64,000 nucleotides of DNA, from positions 3,747,471 to 3,811,470 of the forward strand of contig CP070815.1 of the NCBI GenBank assembly GCA_020344215.1, in the 5' to 3' direction. Positions 2,433 to 46,777 of this stretch are shown here, in pieces (position 1 is the stretch's first letter; the number at the start of each line of letters is the position of its first letter). The notes beneath the pieces were generated by a model, which did no database searches, was not told where the DNA came from, and saw nothing but the letters and a program-made list of their open reading frames with translations. The translations under genes were made by a program, and so were the position numbers. The stretch is from Gemmatimonadota bacterium. Lineage in GTDB: Bacteria > Gemmatimonadota > Gemmatimonadetes > Palauibacterales > KS3-K002.

Positions 2433-4048
2433 ATGGAGCTGTCGTTACTTCAGCGCAGGAAGATCCCGCTGCTCTTCCTGCTCGGCGTCGGTATTCCGAG
2501 TCTCGCTCTTGGCTACCTCGCCTTTCGAGGTATCCGGAACGAGCTGGCGCTTCTCGAGCAGCGGCGACTCGGCGAGCACCGTGCGCTCGCCGAGTTGGTG
2601 GGCGATACGATCGCAGAACGCATCGCGGCGGCGGAGCTCCGCGGCGGCGGACAGGCGAACCGGCGAGGAACGAGTTCCAACAGAATCGCTATCGCGCCGC
2701 CGCCACGTCCTATCAGCGTGCGTTCGCCGGGGTCTCCGATCCGGTACTTAAGGGTGAAGCACTGGTCGCCATCGCCAGGGTCCGGCGTAAGGCAGGCGAT
2801 TTCGCGGCTGCGATCACTTCGTGCGAGACGCTGGCCGACGACTACGGCCGGGTGAGGACGACCGCCGGGGTACCGCTTGGGCCGATGGCGCGCCTCGAGC
2901 AGGGCTCTCTGTTGCTCATGACCGGCGACTCGCTGGGTGCACGCGCCGCGTTCACCGACTTGTACGAGCGACTGGTCGACGGGGAGTGGATGCTCGAGCG
3001 AGCGCAGTACGAGTTCTTCGCGGGACAGGCGGGCGACTCGATCGGCGGCATGGCTGCGCGTGCGGCTGGTTCGGCAGGGTCGAGTCAGAGCACTCTCGCA
3101 GATCTGCGAGCGAGGGAAGCCGAGCGCAGGGAGATTACGGAGCGACTCATCCTGTTCCAGGAGAGGGCGGGCGAGGATCTGGCGGCGCGAATCTCTAGAG
3201 CCGGCGACGGTGCACTCAACACCGGGTCGCGGTTCACCCTGGAGAGTGCCGGGCAAAGCTACCTCGTATCTCTGCTGTACCCAGTTCGAGGCGAAGGCGG
3301 TGGGTGGGGTCTGCTCTTCGATGCCGACTATCTGCGGGATGGTCTGCTTCGCCCCGCGCTTGAGGAGTACGTCGACCCTGCGACGAGCGACTGGGTTGTG
3401 AGGGGGAAGGACGGCAGCGCGATCCTGGCGCGCGACGGTTCGCCGACCGGGTCGCTCACGCTGAACGCTACCCTGGCGGGCAATTTCCCGCCGTGGCTGA
3501 TCGAGTTCTACCAGCGGCCGCGGAGTCCGTACAGGCGCCTCTTCGCATCGGGCCAGAGCATCTATCTCTACACGTTCCTACTCATCGCGAGCATCCTGAT
3601 CTTCGGGCTGGCCCTGACGGTCCGAGCCGTCACTCACGAGCTGGAACTCGCGAGGCTCAAGTCCGATTTCGTCTCGACGGTCTCCCACGAGTTCAAGAGC
3701 CCGCTGACCTCGATCCGTCAGCTGGCGGAGATGCTGCAGGGTGGACGGGTACCCTCCGAGGAGCGCCGCCAGCGGTACTACGATGTGTTGGTTGAGCAGA
3801 GCTCCAGGCTCTCTTCTCTGGTCACCAACATCCTCGACCTCGCCAGGATCGAGGAGGGGAGGAAGGAATTCCGGTTTGAGGCGGTCGACGCGGGCGAGCT
3901 CGTGCGGGACCTGGTGGCGACGACCCAGCATCGTGTGGGACACGAGGGTTTCGTCGTGGAGGCTCGTGTCGAGGAGGCGCTGCCGCCGGTGCGCGCCGAC
4001 GCCGTCGCTGCTTGCGGCCCCAGGGCTCGCCACGGTATCGTCACATGA
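2433..4048 (+). pseudogene. Frameshifted and truncated sensor histidine kinase
   Basis: The N-terminus starts at ATG 2433 with a transmembrane helix (about residues 11-31). Near 2641-2650, in a GCGGCGGCGG run, the reading frame changes by one base, and the rest continues in another frame. That part holds a TPR-like extracytoplasmic region, a second TM helix (around 3555-3625) and a HisKA dimerisation domain with the phosphoacceptor motif STVSHEFKSPL (around 3675-3705). The sequence stays kinase-like to about 4005 and then ends at TGA 4046-4048. The whole HATPase_c catalytic domain is missing, and no response regulator follows. The frameshift could be an assembly error, but loss of the ATPase domain cannot be repaired by one base. 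Confidence 0.8.
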
Positions 4049-4049
4049 C

Positions 4050-6791
4050 ATGGCGAGCCCTGCTCTATCCGAAAAACTGCTGAAGCAACTCCGTGCCGTC
4101 GTCGGACGCGGTAACGTGCTCACGGAGCCGGGCGAGCTGCTCGCCTTCGAGTCCGATGCGCTGACCGCCTACCGGGCGACACCCGCCGCCGTCGTATTCG
4201 TTCACTCGACTGAAGAGATCCAGGCGGTCGTCTCCGCGCTGCACATGGCGACGATCCCGTTCGTGCCACGGGGCGCCGGGACCGGGCTGTCGGGCGGTGC
4301 CGTGGCTGACGGTGCGGTGATCGTCGAGCTGTCACGCATGAACCGCATCCTCTGGATCGATGCGGAGAACCGGCGGGCACGGGTACAGCCGGGTGTCATC
4401 AACGCGCGGCTCAACGAGGTGGTGGCGCCGCAGCGGCTCATGTACGCGCCCGACCCGTCGAGCGAGGCGGCCTGCACGCTGGGCGGTAACGTGGCCGAGA
4501 ACGCCGGTGGCCCGCACTGCCTGAAGTACGGCGTGACCTCGAACCACATCGTCGGTCTCACCGTGGTCGCGCCGGGCGGCGCGGTGATCGAGCTACCGGG
4601 TCCCGACGGCCCGGGCTACGACCTGGTGGGTCTGTTCGTCGGCTCGGAGGGTACGCTGGGGATCTGCAGCGAGATCGAGGTGCGGCTCGTGCCGGTCCCC
4701 GCCGCGGTCGGCACGCTCTTGGCCCACTTCGACGACATCGAGGGAGCGAGCCGCGCCGTGTCGGCGATCATCGCGGCGGGGATCGTGCCCGCCGCGCTCG
4801 AGATGATCGATCAGAATACGCTGAAGGCGGTGGAGGCGTCAGTCTACGCCGCTGGGTTCCCGACCGACGTCGCCGCCTCGCTCATCGTCGAGCTCGACGG
4901 GCCGGGCGCCGGCCTCGCCGAGCAGGTACTCCAGGTCGAGGAGTTGCTGGCGGAACACGGGGCGCGGCAGGTGGGTGTGGCGGCGAGCGAGACGGAGCGC
5001 ACGAAGTTCTGGAAGGCGCGCAAGTCGGCGTTCGGCGCGATGGGCCGAATCGGCTCTGACCTGTTTGTACAGGACGCGACGGTGCCGCGCAGCAAGCTGC
5101 CCGAGATGCTCGCCCGGGTGTACGAGATTGCGAAGAAGTACGATCTGACAATCACCAACGTCTTCCACGCGGGTGATGGCAACCTGCACCCGAACATCCC
5201 GTTCGATCGGCGCGAGGGTGGTGTCCTCGACCGGGTGTATGAGGCGAGCAAGGAGATCATCGAGGCGAGCGTCGCGGCGGGCGGCACGATCACCGGCGAG
5301 CACGGCGTCGGCGTCGACAAGCGGAAGTACATGTCGCTCGTCTTCTCCGATGTCGACCGTCAGGTGATGCGCTGGGTGAAGCAGGTCTTCGATCCCGCCA
5401 AGCTCTGCAATCCGAAGAAGATCCTTCCGGATGAGCCGGAGACGCCGGTCCCGGGCTGGGTCGGTACGGTGGGCGTAAGGAGATCGAAGGCGAAGCCCGA
5501 TGAGGTCGCCGGTGCGGTAGAGGTGGCGATCGGCTCGGCCTGCCTGCTGGATAAGCCGGGCACTTTCATTGTGGACGGCGCGCCTGCTGAGGTGGTAGCT
5601 GAGCCCGAGTCGCTGGAAGAACTGGCCGAGCTGATGCAGCTGGCCGGGAAGTCGGGCTGGGCGGTGGTTCCGGTAGGCCACGGGGGTTGGCTCAACGTCG
5701 GCAACCCGCACCGTCATTTCGATCTCGTGATCACCATGCGGCGGCTAAACGGGGTCGTCGAGCATCATCCCGACGATCTCCTGGCCACGGTGCTGCCGGG
5801 GACCTCGCTCCGCGATCTGGGCGCGACGCTGGCCGGGGTGGGGCAGTGGTGGCCGCTCGACCCGCTGGGCGACGGGACGGTTGGCGCGACGATCGCTACC
5901 GGTTCGGCGGGCCCGCTGGCCGCTGCCTTCGGGACGCCTCGCGACCTCGTCCTCGGGCTCACTGTGATCCGGCCCGACGGCCGCGTGGTCAAAGCCGGCG
6001 GCCGGGTGGTGAAGAACGTGGCCGGCTACGACATGGTGAAGCTGTACACCGGGAGCTGGGGGACGCTGGGGATCATCGCCAAGGCGCACCTGCGGCTGCA
6101 CGCGCTACCGCAGGCGGACCGGACGCGCCTCTACCGGGCGCGAGGCGCTGGGGAGTTGGCCGCCCTGGCGATGGAGCTGGTGGCGAGCGGCAGGCTGGCG
6201 CCGGCGGCAGCGGAGATCGCCTCGCCAGCGGCGGCGCGGGCCCTTGATGTCGAGACTGACGATTGGGTGCTGATCGTCCGCTGGCTGGGGCACAAAGCGG
6301 CGGTCAACGACGCTGTGCGTGGTGCGAAATCCGCCGCGGCCAGGCGGTCGATCCGGGTCGAGTCGCGCGACCGGATTTGGGGCTCGGTCGTCGGCCTGGA
6401 GGACAGCCTGCGACCGGCACTGGCCGTCCGGGCCAATATTCCGCTGCGGGCCGTCGAGGAGTTCGTCCGGCAGGCGACGCCGTTCTGCGGTGGGGAGACG
6501 CCGCCGCTACTGGCTTCGCCGCTCACGGGTCGGATCTGGATCTTCGTGCCGCGTTCGCTGTACGGGGCGGCGTCAAGTGAGCGGCTCTGGACGTTGCGGG
6601 TGGAGGAGCTGCGACGCGAGGCCAGAGAGGGCGGCGGTGTGGTGAGGGTGGAGCGGGCGCCGACGTCGCTACGCCGGATCGTCGACCCCTGGGGCGACCC
6701 GGGTGCAGCCCAGCAGCTCATCAGCGCACTCAAGATCAGGTTCGATCCGGACGCGATACTGAAACCGGGCTTCTTCGTGGGAGAGTTGTGA
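4050..6791 (+). CDS. glcD-glcE: Glycolate oxidase, fused GlcD-GlcE FAD subunits
   Basis: A 913-residue fusion of the two flavoprotein subunits of membrane-associated glycolate oxidase (glycolate to glyoxylate). Residues 1-465 match GlcD: PCMH FAD-binding motif RGAGTGLSGG (74-83), GNVAENAGG (147-155), VGSEGTLG (197-204), HAGDGNLHPN (373-382) and GEHGVGVDKRKY (417-428). Residues about 475-913 match GlcE, with a second PCMH domain (VGHGGWLNVGNP; VKNVAGYDMVKLYTGS). E. coli makes these as separate proteins. The partner Fe-S subunit GlcF is at 21040. ATG 4050 has no clear Shine-Dalgarno site and sits directly on the broken kinase, so expression may depend on the deletion junction. Confidence 0.9.
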   Translation: MASPALSEKLLKQLRAVVGRGNVLTEPGELLAFESDALTAYRATPAAVVFVHSTEEIQAVVSALHMATIPFVPRGAGTGLSGGAVADGAVIVELSRMNRILWIDAENRRARVQPGVINARLNEVVAPQRLMYAPDPSSEAACTLGGNVAENAGGPHCLKYGVTSNHIVGLTVVAPGGAVIELPGPDGPGYDLVGLFVGSEGTLGICSEIEVRLVPVPAAVGTLLAHFDDIEGASRAVSAIIAAGIVPAALEMIDQNTLKAVEASVYAAGFPTDVAASLIVELDGPGAGLAEQVLQVEELLAEHGARQVGVAASETERTKFWKARKSAFGAMGRIGSDLFVQDATVPRSKLPEMLARVYEIAKKYDLTITNVFHAGDGNLHPNIPFDRREGGVLDRVYEASKEIIEASVAAGGTITGEHGVGVDKRKYMSLVFSDVDRQVMRWVKQVFDPAKLCNPKKILPDEPETPVPGWVGTVGVRRSKAKPDEVAGAVEVAIGSACLLDKPGTFIVDGAPAEVVAEPESLEELAELMQLAGKSGWAVVPVGHGGWLNVGNPHRHFDLVITMRRLNGVVEHHPDDLLATVLPGTSLRDLGATLAGVGQWWPLDPLGDGTVGATIATGSAGPLAAAFGTPRDLVLGLTVIRPDGRVVKAGGRVVKNVAGYDMVKLYTGSWGTLGIIAKAHLRLHALPQADRTRLYRARGAGELAALAMELVASGRLAPAAAEIASPAAARALDVETDDWVLIVRWLGHKAAVNDAVRGAKSAAARRSIRVESRDRIWGSVVGLEDSLRPALAVRANIPLRAVEEFVRQATPFCGGETPPLLASPLTGRIWIFVPRSLYGAASSERLWTLRVEELRREAREGGGVVRVERAPTSLRRIVDPWGDPGAAQQLISALKIRFDPDAILKPGFFVGEL

Positions 6792-41085: not shown

Positions 41086-41193
41086 TCAGAGGTACCCGAC
41101 GATCAGATAGATCACCGTGGTCAGGATCACCAGCAACCCGGCGAGTTTTTCGAGACGCTCGGGTGCGGCCAGGATCTTGGCTTTCGTTCTCAT
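41086..41193 (-). CDS. Tiny single-TM protein (35 residues)
   Basis: The minus strand encodes 35 residues: a basic N-terminus (MRTKAKILAAPERLEK) and one C-terminal transmembrane helix (LAGLLVILTTVIYLIVGYL). There is no clear Shine-Dalgarno site, so expression is unproven, but the charge-then-helix layout is unlikely by chance. It is divergent from the BTAD regulator at 41487, and the phased repeats lie between them. This mirrors the 38-residue TM protein opposite the second BTAD gene. Seven bases before its ATG is a word, ATCTACGTGACAGG on the plus strand, that recurs with one mismatch at 46546-46559. Confidence 0.45.
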   Translation of the reverse strand: MRTKAKILAAPERLEKLAGLLVILTTVIYLIVGYL

Positions 41194-41262
41194 GCTGTCA
41201 TCTACGTGACAGGGCAAGGAGAGGTTCGTCGCACAGTTACATGGCCAATGATAGACGGGGCG

Positions 41263-41337
41263 AATCAGGTGGCGGTCAGGTGGGTATCAGGTTGAGGGGG
41301 TGTCTATCAGGCAGCTATCAGGTGGCTATCATGTGCG
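41263..41337 (+). promoter_or_regulatory. Six 11-bp-phased direct repeats, SARP-type operator candidate
   Basis: Six units read AATCAGGTGGC (41263), GGTCAGGTGGG (41274), TATCAGGTTGA (41285), then after 9 bp TATCAGGCAGC (41305), TATCAGGTGGC (41316) and TATCATGTGCG (41327). Within each triplet the spacing is exactly 11 bp. SARP regulators are known to bind heptamers repeated every 11 bp. The array lies between the tiny TM gene and the BTAD gene at 41487, in the orientation of the latter. The rest of 40908-41262 and 41338-41486 holds no gene apart from the tiny one. Confidence 0.7.
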
Positions 41338-41486
41338 CGACGAACGCTTGTTTCCGGGGCGAGCAGGCTGGCTGACTTGTGATGAGGGGGGCGGAGGGTC
41401 AAATTTTGGAAGATCCGCTACGAGGAGAGGACCCCGCATGCTCGGGTCGCCGGCCCTGTCAGGCGGCCGGGTCGGGCTGAGGCGAT

Positions 41487-42854
41487 ATGATCAAGATACA
41501 GACACTGGGGCGGACATCGGTGGCGGTGGCCGGCGAGCCGTTGTCCGGGGAAGCGGCCTGGCCGAAGTCGCTGGCGCTGCTGGTGTACATGGCGCGTGAG
41601 CCGGGCCCGGATCGACGGGACGAGATTCTGGGCGTCCTGTGGCCTGATCGTGACGAGAAGAGGGCGCGGCGTGCGCTGAATCAGCTGCTTTACACGCTTC
41701 GCAAGTCGAGCCCGGAGCTGACGCTGGAGAGCGTGGAGGACGCCGTCGACTTTGGGCGCGAGGTGTGGCTTGATGTAGAGGAATTCGAGCGGCGGCTGGA
41801 GGCCGGGGATCTGAAGGGGGCGGTGGAGCTGTATGAGGGCCCGTTCTTGGCCGACCTGGCGGTGAGCGAGCCGGATTTCGACCATTGGGCGGACCGGCAG
41901 CGTGCGGACCTGCAACGGAAGTTCCGTAAGGCGGCGCTGGAGCTGGCGGGGCAGGCCCGCGAGGAGGGCGACCTGGACGGCGCGGTGGCGTACTGTCGGC
42001 GGCTGGTGGATTCGGATCCACTGGACGACGAGGCGCAGCACCTGCTGATCGAGTCGTTGTACCTGCACGGGGACCGGCTGGCGGCGCTACGCCAGTTCGA
42101 GGTCTACCGGGACCTGCTGGCGCGGGAGCTGGAGGTCGAGCCGCTGGAGCACACGCGGGAGCTGGTGGATCGGATCCGCGATGAGCCACAGCCGGGCGAA
42201 GGCGAGCTCGAGCCGGAAGTGGCGGTGGAGGGTGAGGCGCGGCGGCGGGGGGAGGCCGTTGAGGAGGCCGCCAAGCCGAAGCCGGGAGGCCGAGGGGCGC
42301 CGAGTCGCCGGGACTTGATCGTTGCAGGCTCGGTCGCGGTGGTGGCGGTGCTGGCCATCATATTCTGGCCCTGGCGGCCCGGGGCGCCGGGCGGCGCCGG
42401 GCGCGAGGTCGTCACGGCAGAGTCGTTGCGTGTCGCTGTGCTCCCGTTCTGGCCCCATGGTCTAGGAGACGAAGACCAGGGTCTATCGGCGGGTGTGGCG
42501 CAGCTTTTAGCCATCAACCTCGAGGAGAGCGGGTCGCTTGAGGTGGTACCACACCGCGTGGTACTCGAGGCCTGGGAGCGAGCCGGCTTCAGCGACGCGA
42601 CCGCCTTCAACGCCGCGACGCTGGGCGCGCTCGCCGGTGACATGCGAGCGACGTCGCTGCTGTTGGGTGACCTTCATGCGAGCGGCGACGAGTTCCGGAT
42701 CGTGGCCGAGCTGATAGGCGGGCGGACCGGCGCCGTGCTGGCGCGGGCAGACGTGCGCGGGCCGCGCGACAATCTCTTCGCTCTGCTTGACGAGCTCGCC
42801 GTGTCGCTGGCCGAGGACGTACGGGCCGCGGCGGATACGGCGGGCGGGCGGTGA
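41487..42854 (+). CDS. Membrane-tethered SARP-like regulator (wHTH-BTAD-TM)
   Basis: A 455-residue protein. Residues 1-95 are an OmpR-type winged helix of the SARP kind (KIQTLGRTSVAVAGEPL; WPKSLALLVYMA; RRALNQLLYTLRK). Residues about 96-235 are the BTAD helical domain (LYEGPFLADL; FRKAALELAGQARE). A Pro/Glu-rich linker leads to one TM helix (about 278-295), and the last 150 residues (LRVAVLPFWPHGLGDEDQGLSAGVAQLLA) form a FlgO-like alpha/beta domain predicted to be periplasmic. This is a ToxR/CadC-like layout: DNA-binding inside, sensor outside. It may bind the phased repeats upstream. Known SARPs are soluble. Confidence 0.85.
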   Translation: MIKIQTLGRTSVAVAGEPLSGEAAWPKSLALLVYMAREPGPDRRDEILGVLWPDRDEKRARRALNQLLYTLRKSSPELTLESVEDAVDFGREVWLDVEEFERRLEAGDLKGAVELYEGPFLADLAVSEPDFDHWADRQRADLQRKFRKAALELAGQAREEGDLDGAVAYCRRLVDSDPLDDEAQHLLIESLYLHGDRLAALRQFEVYRDLLARELEVEPLEHTRELVDRIRDEPQPGEGELEPEVAVEGEARRRGEAVEEAAKPKPGGRGAPSRRDLIVAGSVAVVAVLAIIFWPWRPGAPGGAGREVVTAESLRVAVLPFWPHGLGDEDQGLSAGVAQLLAINLEESGSLEVVPHRVVLEAWERAGFSDATAFNAATLGALAGDMRATSLLLGDLHASGDEFRIVAELIGGRTGAVLARADVRGPRDNLFALLDELAVSLAEDVRAAADTAGGR

Positions 42855-42890
42855 TCCGCCGCGTGCCCCGTCTTCGACGTCGGGCTACGT

Positions 42891-43109
42891 CTACTTGGGT
42901 CTCCAGGGCGGCTTCGGCGGCGGGCCCGGATCGCCCATCGGCTCACCGAAGACTTTTCTCTCGAGATTGACGATGTCCCTCTGGACGCGTTCTCCCCACT
43001 CGTAGAGGCACTCGGTCCACTGGACCAGGTGGTTGAAGTCCTCCACAGTCATGACGACGCCGTCAGTCGCGTCGCCGGTCTCGAAACGCCTGCACGGATC
43101 GTCCTGCAT
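42891..43109 (-). CDS. Small hypothetical protein downstream of the second BTAD gene
   Basis: A 72-residue soluble protein with no recognised domain. Its ATG at 43109 follows a textbook AAGGAGG site by 5 bases, which argues strongly that it is real. The middle is helical and acidic (VEDFNHLVQWTECLYEWGERVQRDIVNLERKV), and the end is a Pro-rich tail (PPPKPPW). It starts 45 bases after the BTAD gene on the same strand, so it is probably its operon partner. Confidence 0.7.
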   Translation of the reverse strand: MQDDPCRRFETGDATDGVVMTVEDFNHLVQWTECLYEWGERVQRDIVNLERKVFGEPMGDPGPPPKPPWRPK

Positions 43110-43154
43110 CTGGCCTCCTTGCTAAGGGTGTTTCGGCCGAGTACCGCAAGCGCT

Positions 43155-46100
43155 CTAATCTGAGATTGCGGTCAGGATGTCGTGCCTACCGAGGGCGGCG
43201 AGTCGCTCCCGATGCCGTCCCTCCGATTCGGGGTCCCCGAGCTGGCGGGCCAGTAGCACGCGCAGCGCCAAGCTCCTGGGGAGGTAGATCAAGTCTGACG
43301 AAGGCCGGGCGGGCGCATCGAAGTTGACCGCGAGCTCTAAGGCACTGGCGTACTCGCCGCGTGCGAAGAGCAACTCGGCCAGAGCGATCTGCTCGCCGGC
43401 CAGCGATTCCCAGGGGTACCAGGTATCCTCGTATCTCTTGGTCGGCCGGAGCGACGTGAGGAGCTGCAAGGCCCTGGCGGAATCGCCGGCCACCAGCGCA
43501 GCACGGGCCTCTAGGCTGCGGGCCATCAGGCCTTCGGCGCGGCCCCCGCTCTCGGCGGCCAATTGCGACAGCGAGCTTGCCAGGGCGCTAAGCTCTTGGC
43601 TGCGGCCGCGGCTCATCTCCCATAACCCGAGGAACCAGATCTCGAAGGCCTGCGCCGACCCCTCGCGGTGCCGCTCCCACATTCTCTCCGCGTAGGCGCT
43701 TGCAGCGACCCCGAGGTTGACGCCGGCATCGGCGTCGAGCAGGTAGAAATCACCGGCGTAGTAGCTGATCGAGGTGTCGGACTCGAGGAAGTTGACCAGT
43801 TCCGCGGTCCGGCCTTCCGCTGCGAGCAGACTCTGGAGTGACAGAGCGGCATCGAACAGGCGGTACTCTGCCCAGTCGTCGGTGGCCGTATCGTGGGTCA
43901 GGACCGCCGTCCAGGCCGCCCGGGCACACTCGGCCTGGTAACCGCCGACGGCGAGGGACTCTCCGACCCTGAGGACCGAATTGGGGCGCTCGAGAGTGGC
44001 GCGGCGCCAATCCACCAGGTCGGGGGAGTCCCGCACGCAGGCGAGCATGAGCTCGGCATCGGCGAGCCTGGCGGCGTCGGGTCCGGCGGCCCGGAATGGC
44101 TGCATGAGGTCTTCGGCCCGCGCGAGCTCACCCTTCCGCAGAGCCATCTCTATCAGGTGAAAGACGACGGGCGTGTAGCCGCGGTCGTGGCGATACACCT
44201 CCAGGAAGGCGGCCTCAGCGAGCGAGTCGAGGGGTGACTCGCTGGGCTGGAGGTGATAATACACCTCGCCCAACCGCGCCCAGGTGTCCCACGATTCCGG
44301 CGCGGACGCGATGACCCGCCGGAAGTGCGCGACCGCGGAGTCGGCGCGACCCCCCAGGTACTCCCTGAGGCCGAAGGCGAGTTCCGCGCGGTGAAGTGGC
44401 ATGAAGGCGGGCTGGCGCAGGACCAGGTCGAGCAGCTGATCCGCCGCTGACAGTTCTTGGATCCAGAGCGCCGCCTGGACGCCGCGCAGCGCGGCGTAGT
44501 AGAAGCTCGAGTCGGCTCCCACCGCGCTGCGGTAGTGCTGGAAGGCTGCGGCGAACTGGGCGCGGCGATAGGCGCGCTCCCCTTCCTGGAACTGTGCCGC
44601 GGCCTGGGAGGAAGGACTCGCGGCGGCCAGCTGGATCGGCGGCTCGCTGGGGGCCAGCACGCGTAGTGGGCTTCGCATCGCGCGGTAGGCGTAGGCGCGC
44701 TCCCAATCCCGCTCCAGCGGTCCGGCGGCGCTACCGTGAGCGAGGATCGAATCGCCTTCCACGTCGTGTAGCTCGAGGCGCACGAACGCGGAGTCGACGT
44801 CCAGAACGATACGGCCCTGCACGTAGTAGGCGGCACCCAGGGCGCGCGCCTTGTCGCGGGCGCTGCGAGGGGCCAAAGGCTGCAGACCGGCGCGCTGGAG
44901 ATCGTCGAGCCTGTACCAGCCGTCGATCCACCTGAGTCCTGCCGCCTCAATGGCGAACTGTACCCAAGTGGCGACATGCTCGCCGGCGGCTTCGTTCCCC
45001 TCGGGCGTCACATGGAGCGGGAAGACGACGACGCTGTTCCTGTCGAGTTCGCCGAATCGGATGAGCAGGCGCTGCAACTGCGTGGCGGCCAGCAGCGCCA
45101 CAAACAGCCCGGCGAGAAACCAGAGCACCTGACCGCCTCGTACCCGCTCTGCCCACTGCGGCCAGAGCCGGCGCCGCTCCGTTCTTCGCTCCTCGGCTAA
45201 ATCCGCCGGTTTGAGTTCGTGAGCCCAGGCCAGGGTGAGGGCGAAAGGGAGGCCGACGGCGAGGAAGAACAGGACGACGCGGAAGACCACGTCGGGGAGG
45301 ATGCCGTGCTCGACCAGGGTGCCGGTGAACTGAATCGCCAGCCAGGCGACGGCCAGGTAGACGGCGCCGACGTGGAAGACGCGGTGCTCGCGTAGCTCGG
45401 CCATCACGGCTGACCAGCCGCTCTTCGGCGGCGCACGCTCATCGTCGCGCAGCGCGGCCTCGTCGACTGCGGCGACCGGCTCAGCGACCGGGATCGCCTT
45501 CGCCGGTCGCTCGGTTGCGGTGAGGGGCTGAAACTCGACGGCATCGCCGGCCCGGATCCGCTCGACCAGCGCTACGGTCTCTTCCAGCGGCTCGACTTCC
45601 AGTTCTGTTGCCAGTCGGGATCGGTAGGCGTCGTACTGCTTGAGGGCTGCGGAACGCTGACCGGAACGAGCAAGCAGGGCGATGTAGGTATGCTGCGCTT
45701 CGTCCTCCGAAGGCTCCAACGTCGCCCAACGGGTCGCCGTTGCCAGGGCCGCGTTCAGGTCGCCGGCTGCAACCTGGTGGTCCACAACCTGGCGGAAGGC
45801 AGTTCGTGCCAGGCGGGCGAGCCTGGTGCGGGTGGTGGACTGCCATTTCTCAAACTCCGGCGCACCGGGCAGCTGGAACTGGTCGAGGAACGGCCCGTGG
45901 TAGAGCTCGGTTACGATCTCCCAACGCTCCGCGTCCGCTGCCTCCTGCATCGCCCGCGCGTCTACAGTACAGGCCTCGCCAGCAGCCTCCACCGCATCGC
46001 CCTCGACTCGCAGACACTCCTCACCCAGCTCGCGTCTCAGAGCGTAGAGCGCCTGCGACAGCGAGTGGCGCGCTTTCTCTTCCTCCCGTTCAGGCCAGAA

Positions 46101-46247
46101 GAGGGCCAGGAGACTGTCGCGGGAGACGCGACCTTCGATGGCCAGGTGGGCGAGCAGGGCGAACCTCTGCTTCTGGGCTGTGAGCCCGGCCAGCTCCTCA
46201 CCGTCGCGGCTGATCGCGCCGCGGCCGAGCGTCTTCAGTTCGATCAT
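43155..46247 (-). CDS. Membrane SARP-like regulator with TPR array (wHTH-BTAD-3TM-TPR)
   Basis: A 1030-residue protein. Residues 1-95 are a SARP winged helix (MIELKTLGRGAISRDG; KARHSLSQALYALRREL) and 96-245 are the BTAD domain (LYHGPFLDQF; YRSRLATELEVEPLEE). Two TM helices (about 322-375) form the VGAVYLAVAWLAIQF module shared with the 12306 protein, and a third lies near 425-445. About 600 residues then carry a FlgO-like part and TPR-type helices. The start at 46247 aligns its N-terminus with the 41487 paralogue; longer forms add non-family sequence. If the topology is right, DNA binding is cytoplasmic and the TPRs are periplasmic. Confidence 0.82.
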   Translation of the reverse strand: MIELKTLGRGAISRDGEELAGLTAQKQRFALLAHLAIEGRVSRDSLLALFWPEREEEKARHSLSQALYALRRELGEECLRVEGDAVEAAGEACTVDARAMQEAADAERWEIVTELYHGPFLDQFQLPGAPEFEKWQSTTRTRLARLARTAFRQVVDHQVAAGDLNAALATATRWATLEPSEDEAQHTYIALLARSGQRSAALKQYDAYRSRLATELEVEPLEETVALVERIRAGDAVEFQPLTATERPAKAIPVAEPVAAVDEAALRDDERAPPKSGWSAVMAELREHRVFHVGAVYLAVAWLAIQFTGTLVEHGILPDVVFRVVLFFLAVGLPFALTLAWAHELKPADLAEERRTERRRLWPQWAERVRGGQVLWFLAGLFVALLAATQLQRLLIRFGELDRNSVVVFPLHVTPEGNEAAGEHVATWVQFAIEAAGLRWIDGWYRLDDLQRAGLQPLAPRSARDKARALGAAYYVQGRIVLDVDSAFVRLELHDVEGDSILAHGSAAGPLERDWERAYAYRAMRSPLRVLAPSEPPIQLAAASPSSQAAAQFQEGERAYRRAQFAAAFQHYRSAVGADSSFYYAALRGVQAALWIQELSAADQLLDLVLRQPAFMPLHRAELAFGLREYLGGRADSAVAHFRRVIASAPESWDTWARLGEVYYHLQPSESPLDSLAEAAFLEVYRHDRGYTPVVFHLIEMALRKGELARAEDLMQPFRAAGPDAARLADAELMLACVRDSPDLVDWRRATLERPNSVLRVGESLAVGGYQAECARAAWTAVLTHDTATDDWAEYRLFDAALSLQSLLAAEGRTAELVNFLESDTSISYYAGDFYLLDADAGVNLGVAASAYAERMWERHREGSAQAFEIWFLGLWEMSRGRSQELSALASSLSQLAAESGGRAEGLMARSLEARAALVAGDSARALQLLTSLRPTKRYEDTWYPWESLAGEQIALAELLFARGEYASALELAVNFDAPARPSSDLIYLPRSLALRVLLARQLGDPESEGRHRERLAALGRHDILTAISD

Positions 46248-46524
46248 CGCCCGGGTGTCTGCCGCCTGGAGGTCGACGGGCGGGAGAAGCGGGCCGATGG
46301 GGTGCGGCGGCGCATCGTGGATGCTCCCGGTTTGAGAGGTTGATCGCCGACCGAATCGCAGAGCGGCCGCTGCCCGACCAGCCCGGCGATCGCGCGGTAG
46401 AGCTTGCGATTGCAGACAACCAAAGGTGTGGCCTGGTCCACTGTGCGGCAAGCACCTGTTGTGAGTACCCCCATCGGCCGCCGGCCTCTGGGGAGGGAAA
46501 TCTCGGGGGTCAGGGCACCGGGCT

Positions 46525-46568
46525 GGGTCAGATGACCGCCGGATGATCTACGTGATAGGCCAGATGAC
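46525..46568 (-). promoter_or_regulatory. Phased repeat cluster between BTAD gene and tiny TM gene
   Basis: On the minus strand the units GTCATCTGGCC, TATCACGTAGA, TCATCCGGCGG and TCATCTGACCC follow one another. TCA steps are 12, 9 and 11 bp, with one more TCA 11 bp upstream (at 46578-46576). The units resemble the TATCAGGTGGC repeats at 41263-41337 and run in the orientation of the BTAD gene. Phasing is looser than at 41263. The rest of the 46248-46660 gap shows no gene; a TATAGT (46601-46606) may be the -10 of the tiny TM gene. Confidence 0.5.
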
Positions 46569-46660
46569 AGAGGTTTGAGACCGGGCTGAAGCTGTCGCTG
46601 TATAGTGCCAGCGAGACGTGGAATACAGGTGTAGGGCCAACGGCGGAGAAGGAGGCGGCT

Positions 46661-46777
46661 ATGCTCAACAGATATAAGAGGCTCGGGATGATGATCCGGA
46701 CTGCGAGGGCCGTCGGGCTCGGGGTGTTCTACGTGGCCTTGACCGCCGCGCTCCTGTATTCGGTGCTCGCGTGGTGA
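46661..46777 (+). CDS. Tiny single-TM protein (38 residues)
   Basis: The 38 residues consist of a basic N-terminus (MLNRYKRLGMMIRTAR) and one C-terminal helix (VGLGVFYVALTAALLYSVLAW). The ATG follows GAAGGAGGCGGCT, an excellent ribosome site, and a TATAGT -10-like box lies 55 bases upstream. It is divergent from the BTAD-TPR regulator across the phased repeats, just as the 35-residue TM protein is from the other BTAD gene. It could interact in the membrane with the tethered regulator. I know of no named family. Confidence 0.75.
   Translation: MLNRYKRLGMMIRTARAVGLGVFYVALTAALLYSVLAW

Follow-up and report, generated by a model that had tools for sequence, protein, structure and literature searches.

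Two predicted membrane-tethered SARP-type regulators and the SARP-box-like promoters of divergent tiny membrane-protein genes in a Gemmatimonadota bacterium

The SARP family is known for soluble activators that switch on antibiotic clusters in actinomycetes. Regulators of the ToxR/CadC type consist of an N-terminal OmpR-like winged helix, a transmembrane (TM) helix and a C-terminal domain on the far side of the membrane, and 11-bp TCA/TGA direct repeats are typical also of PhoB/PhoP-type regulators. Published SARP boxes have their repeats at a spacing of 11 or 22 bp, and 8 bp separate the 3′ repeat from the −10 element; the centre of the afs box is at −29.5 (PMC10936776). The 11-bp direct repeats of SARPs cover the −35 region, a short way before the −10 element (PMC10936776, PMC5930380), and AfsR and PhoP have a site in common (PMC10972967). 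MgrB, a membrane inhibitor of PhoQ with 47 amino acids, is induced by PhoP (PMC2789325). Here we describe a locus of a Gemmatimonadota bacterium (positions 41,086 to 46,777 of the window, that is, of the whole analyzed stretch of 64,000 nucleotides from contig CP070815.1), in which two SARP-type regulator genes, R1 and R2, are convergent and a tiny open reading frame (ORF) lies divergent to each of them, tiny1 to R1 and tiny2 to R2. The best explanation of the whole, to which we give a probability of about 0.7, is that both regulators are tethered in the membrane and, as SARP-type activators, act on the divergent tiny genes through repeats with TGA cores.

R1 (41487..42854, + strand) encodes 455 amino acids and R2 (43155..46247, − strand) encodes 1030. 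BTAD was detected above the Pfam cut-off in both (E-values 1e-17 and 1.9e-16, respectively) and TPR in R2, whereas the Trans_reg_C matches of the regulators were weak (E 0.043 and 0.001). The AlphaFold model of R1, with a mean predicted local distance difference test score (pLDDT) of 83.7, begins with a winged helix and the BTAD helices, followed by a TM helix (residues 274–293) and an alpha/beta C-terminal domain. We place the winged helix at residues 1 to ~95, BTAD at ~96–232, the TM segment at ~274–295 and the C-terminal domain at ~315–453. In Foldseek searches, residues 1 to ~250 matched the AfsR fold (activation complexes 8k60 and 8hvr; E 2e-10 to 2e-9) and also EmbR (2fez; E 2e-10 to 6e-8 for AfsR and EmbR together). 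The C-terminal domain matched the TolB N-terminal domain, LpoB, PelC and GNA1162 (E about 1e-4), and its TolB_N match in Pfam was weak (E 0.025). The elements of R2 follow one another in the same order: winged helix and BTAD at residues 1 to ~235, three TM helices at ~289–397, a TolB-N-like beta-alpha domain at ~406–531 and a TPR array at ~546–1029. The mean pLDDT of its model is 64 and falls below 50 in the middle TolB-N-like domain, which is assigned with lower confidence. Thus, the OmpR-type winged helix followed by BTAD, which is the architecture of the SARP family, is found on fold and Pfam evidence. A DNA-binding domain, a TM helix and a distal candidate sensory domain stand on one chain in R1 and, at lower confidence, in R2. 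The TM segments that the earlier note had assigned to both BTAD regulators were confirmed by hydropathy and the AlphaFold models. Provided that the N-terminus is cytoplasmic, the C-terminal domain of R1 is periplasmic; with one TM helix (R1) or three (R2), a cytoplasmic DNA-binding end would place the C-terminal part on the other side of the membrane.

Orthologs of R1 were found in G001 (78%), which belongs to the same genus, in G005 (64%), in G007 (68%) and, as a split gene, in G003, a genome of another genus. Orthologs of R2 were found in G001 (75%) and G005 (52–53%). Since R2 is convergent with R1 in G005 as well, the pair is not recent. The G003 ortholog of R1 lies in two distant pieces (G003:C1 725214 and 140723), the second of which adjoins masked Ns; this split is probably an assembly artefact or a rearrangement. 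Two more TM-anchored BTAD regulators lie near each other in the genome of the window, G000 (L013 3498–6368 and 7766–10756).

The repeats between each regulator and its tiny ORF were analyzed on the strand of the tiny gene, with TGA positions counted from the first base of the −10 hexamer. In the core promoter of tiny1 (P1; 41248..41289, − strand), the first bases of TGA are at 41289, 41278 and 41267 (−36, −25 and −14), and after 11 nucleotides (N11) follows the −10 hexamer TATCAT (41253–41248). In the core promoter of tiny2 (P2; 46565..46606, + strand), TGA is at 46565, 46576 and 46587 (again −36, −25 and −14), followed by N11 and TATAGT (46601–46606). A distal TGA set near −57 and −68 precedes both tiny genes. 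The predicted distal operator of P1 (41307..41333, − strand) has cores at 41309, 41320 and 41331 (−56, −67 and −78), and that of P2 (46533..46555, + strand) at 46533, 46544 and 46553 (−68, −57 and −48). The 11-bp phasing claimed in the earlier note is strong on the R1 side, where six ATCAGG-type units (ATCAGG toward R1, CCTGAT toward tiny1) are conserved upstream of R1 in G001, G003 and G005. On the R2 side it holds for TGA cores on the tiny-gene strand, with steps of 11, 9, 12, 11 and 11 from 46533 to 46587.

This geometry is conserved in the relatives. The tiny1 promoter has cores at −14, −25 and −36 in G001 (TATAAT) and G005 (TACCAT), and at −14, −26 and −37 in G003 (TAGATT). The tiny2 promoter has cores at −14, −25, −36, −48, −57 and −68 in G000 and G001 (TATAGT, TATACT), and at −14, −25, −36, −56 and −67 in G003 and G007 (TATCGT, TATCCT). 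All eight aligned tiny promoters have TGA near −14/−25/−36, with 1-bp shifts in one, and little is conserved outside the cores. Apart from these shifts, this agrees with the repeat spacing of SARP boxes and with their distance of about 8 bp between the 3′ repeat and the −10 element. In shuffled intergenic sequence, the proximal geometry arose once in 40,000 trials for the R2 side and in none of 40,000 for the R1 side. Among 20 independent ATCAGG-type arrays, a −10-like hexamer follows the last CNTGAY at a distance of exactly 10 bp in six, and no other offset occurs more than three times. Autoregulation of R1 by repeats read toward R1 was rejected, as no −10 peak was observed on that side. A consensus sigma-70 promoter was looked for in the region and not found. 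Judged from the sequence, the repeats are part of the promoter of the tiny gene.

The earlier note had also pointed to a 14-mer, ATCTACGTGAYAGG, common to both intergenic regions. It is found exactly at just these two places in the genome. We rejected it as a conserved operator, since the sister species has ATCTTCCTGACAGG and ATTCGCGTGATAGG instead and the copies stand at non-equivalent places in the two regions. For these reasons it looks coincidental apart from one TGA half-site.

The pattern TGA-N8-TGA-N8-TGA-N11-TANNNT, derived from the tiny promoters, occurs exactly twice in the 4.74-Mb genome of the window, at P1 and P2. Against 148 related genomes it gave 49 matches, compared with two for the reversed pattern and one when the last gap was 14 instead of 11. 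For 16 of the 49 sites, the start of a BTAD gene is no more than 400 bp away, and every one of the 16 is directed away from that gene. Eleven of these sites adjoin BTAD genes that are not orthologs of R1 or R2 (one, L146, with an uncertain BTAD start); since a ~3.5-Mb genome has only a few BTAD genes, we estimate the chance expectation for such sites at well below one. The downstream gene encodes a lipoprotein, called by a simple lipobox rule, at nine of the 11. Outside the family of the window, 19 of 38 sites have the start of a lipoprotein gene within 250 bp, compared with 5% of random positions. We also analyzed 44 other BTAD loci sampled regardless of promoter. Relaxed TGA triplets preceded a −10 element at gap 11 (four loci) and gap 22 (two loci) and at no further gap in the away orientation, with one stray match oriented toward the BTAD gene at gap 17. 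TGA ranked first among all 64 trimers in this test.

Among 52 sampled BTAD loci, 31 encode a TM helix after BTAD (residues 240–420). A divergent lipoprotein-like gene is present at 17 of the 52 loci, compared with four of 126 control genes, and at 14 of the 17 the regulator also has the TM helix. Lipoprotein genes are the usual divergent partners. A divergent tiny TM ORF was detected by strict criteria at only two of the 52, both R1 orthologs (the G001 tiny1 missed the charge cut-off), and we rejected it as a general companion of TM-BTAD genes. The proposal of a tethered SARP with a micro-membrane partner stood as to tethering, for which the AfsR fold, the TM helix and the TolB-N/LpoB-like domain speak, but tethering is not specific to this locus (31/52). 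Some regulators at such promoters (L123, L124) lack an obvious TM helix; thus, this operator grammar does not depend on tethering. To judge from these genomes, a tethered SARP-like regulator divergent from an envelope gene is a recurrent design in Gemmatimonadota, with the tiny TM gene as a local variant in the family of the window.

The tiny ORFs of 35 and 38 codons are present as the earlier note described them and are conserved as proteins, in three and four genomes, respectively. tiny1 (41086..41193, − strand; 35 amino acids) consists of a basic head and a C-terminal TM helix (MRTKAKILAAPERLEKLAGLLVILTTVIYLIVGYL). Its identity is 69% within the genus (G001) and 44% to another genus (G003), and in both genomes it adjoins the R1 ortholog at the equivalent place. 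tiny2 (46661..46777, + strand; 38 amino acids) is built in the same way and has a good ribosome-binding site, AAGGAGG. In a profile search, tiny2 was found in G000, G001, G003 and G007 at E ≤ 1e-20 and in no others among 60 relatives. Its alignment has invariant R, K, VGLG, FY, Y and VL (VGLG.FY...Y.VL), and in the 20-residue core the proportion of nonsynonymous differences (pN) was below that of synonymous differences (pS) in six of six pairs. Both proteins, with one hydrophobic C-terminal helix each, are of the small bitopic type. A third tiny TM gene (MRHADSHARPALSLLFALAVTTMWMYVVLALV) lies in G000 far from BTAD genes (L090 4754–4852; C1 about 3,493,253–3,493,351, + strand), and its promoter has TGA cores at −14, −25, −37, −57, −68 and −79 from TAGCAT.

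Whether the tiny proteins modulate the regulator or act in the envelope is at present a guess. They may quite possibly be envelope effectors or toxin-like membrane peptides and not feedback partners, a role that we consider about as likely as feedback. The lipoprotein gene at homologous promoters elsewhere is an output and not an obvious regulator subunit, and the unlinked gene at L090 has the like promoter geometry with no regulator adjoining; both observations favor an effector. However, the head and helix residues of tiny2 are conserved beyond hydrophobicity (VGLG.FY), which suggests a specific contact with some partner. As for the functional link drawn in the earlier note, its regulatory half gains support from the conserved SARP-box geometry, and tiny protein and regulator may also be physical partners.

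Several observations weigh against the reading of R1 and R2 as activators of their own divergent tiny genes. The TM topology of both regulators is drawn from hydropathy and the models. A tiny1 ORF was not found beside R1 in G005, although R1 and P1 are kept there; the purifying signal of tiny1 is weak (pN 0.24, pS 0.34) and its ribosome-binding site is poor. ATCAGG-type arrays are present in seven of eight family genomes, including G002 and G004 without an R1 ortholog, and some sit between convergent genes, so R1 may not be their sole reader. In G003 and G007, P2 and tiny2 stand directly behind R1 and R2 is absent there; thus, P2 may answer to R1 or to another SARP, and the mirror symmetry seen in the window is partly historical. 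The geometry of the tiny promoters fits that of SARP targets, and P2 persists in these two genomes without R2 adjoining. The array distribution and the missing R2 lower the claim that each promoter is read by the regulator next to it, and not the claim that the promoters are of the SARP type.

One dominant SARP, or R1 alone, might control both tiny genes, with R2 a bystander and the mirror symmetry accidental. The arrangement in G003 and G007 speaks for this, as do the TGA cores and positions that P1 and P2 have in common. However, P1 and P2 are unlike in the bases that flank the cores (CCTGAT-type and GCTGA/ATGA-type, respectively), the convergent R1/R2 pair of G005 is not recent, and elsewhere such promoters as a rule belong to divergent regulator-target pairs. 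We consider control by one SARP unlikely. It is more improbable still that another response regulator of the OmpR/PhoB type reads the ATCAGG arrays and that R1 is its target or mere neighbor. Direct repeats of 11 bp are typical of PhoB/PhoP as well, AfsR and PhoP share a site as cited above, and arrays occur in G002 and G004 and in convergent junctions. In contrast, the core and the −10 spacing are found in other families too, beside BTAD genes unrelated to these, and the orientation is always away from the BTAD gene. That the promoters make small RNAs with incidental tiny ORFs, as P1 without a tiny ORF in G005 and the weak ribosome-binding site of tiny1 might suggest, is very improbable in view of the strong ribosome-binding site of tiny2, its protein-level conservation across genera and an Rfam search of the region that gave no match.

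For R1 and R2 as tethered activators of their neighbors, the sequence shows the domains, their conservation, the geometry of the promoters and the link of this geometry to BTAD genes; the following scheme is our proposal. The cytoplasmic winged helix and BTAD would bind the three 11-bp-spaced TGA repeats and the distal set in the divergent tiny promoter, and RNA polymerase would be recruited, by analogy with AfsR, to a −10 element without a good −35 element. The TolB-N/LpoB-like domain past the TM helix presumably detects an envelope signal and gates the activity. The target, a bitopic membrane protein of 35–38 amino acids, would be a feedback modulator that may contact the regulator, as MgrB acts on PhoQ, or a small envelope effector. 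A wider view, which we put forward tentatively, is that tethered-SARP one-component systems extend across the phylum, each with a dedicated divergent envelope gene and a fixed three-repeat promoter, and that the target in this family is a micro-membrane protein feeding back on the regulator.

Arrays away from the two regulators were observed as follows. RTCAKG arrays with 11-bp phasing are at the junction of the same convergent gene pair in two genera (L095 about 4460–4560; L112 about 660–730). G002 has long RTCAKG arrays of up to ten units on contigs C14, C64, C76 and C90 (L100–L103). An array kept in G000 and G001 (L091 about 4330–4440; L109 about 3920–3990) has genes for a Kdo transferase and a DNA adenine methylase-like protein on either side, the latter named from its N-terminal sequence alone. 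The arrays were rejected as a promoter-only element, since some are in convergent junctions (conserved between genera at L095/L112) with no obvious promoter role. A Pho-regulon reading was also rejected; the neighbors are diverse (Kdo transferase, LolA-like, TonB, lipoprotein, DPPIV and others) and have no phosphate theme.

A further ORF of 72 codons, overlooked in the earlier note, lies ~45 bp downstream of R2 on the same strand (42891..43109, − strand) and has the motif WG..V..DI..LE ... GDPG.PP.PPW. It is kept behind R2-type TM-TPR genes in G001 (72%) and twice in G005 (~40–44%). Weaker relatives stand behind TM-TPR genes without BTAD in G007 (33%), G072 and G117, and the C-terminal tail of the family is GDPG.PP.PPW(R/K). 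The TM-TPR proteins that have a TolB-N/FlgO-like domain and no BTAD (G072, G117, G051, G007) match the membrane and TPR part of R2 and, like R2, have a small protein with the PPW motif encoded next downstream, whereas R2 has the SARP DNA-binding part fused at the front. The 72-codon ORF is a probable operon partner of the membrane-TPR part of R2.

In the open-access literature searched, we found nothing relevant on tethered SARPs or on BTAD regulators of Gemmatimonadota, which is not proof of absence; the layout of an anchored switch beside an envelope gene seems to be undescribed. If the reading is true, the family would be used here in a new way, as a membrane-anchored SARP whose sensor domain is of the envelope type, whose operator grammar is fixed and whose adjoining target is predictable. 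The rule TGA-N8-TGA-N8-TGA-N11-TANNNT beside a BTAD gene is searchable and predicts regulator-target pairs and start sites, which is useful in a phylum with almost no experimental data on regulation. The tiny genes would then be candidates in which feedback of a small protein on a one-component regulator can be tested.

Compared with known systems, R1 and R2 share with AfsR and other SARPs (ActII-ORF4, DnrI, EmbR, PimR) the winged helix and BTAD fold and the 11-bp repeats, and with pimR/pimM the divergent layout of regulator and target. Unlike AfsR-type SARPs, they have a TM anchor with a TolB-N/LpoB-like domain beyond it and no NOD domain, their promoters have three proximal repeats and a distal set, they belong to Gemmatimonadota, and their predicted targets are envelope genes rather than antibiotic clusters. 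The layout is like that of ToxR/CadC, here compared by description, whereas the DNA-binding part of R1 and R2 is a winged helix with BTAD and the operator is a SARP-type array. MgrB and the tiny proteins are both small and bitopic, and the tiny genes, like that of MgrB, may be targets of the regulatory system that they neighbor. However, the partner of MgrB is a sensor kinase, whereas feedback at this locus would act on a one-component tethered activator.

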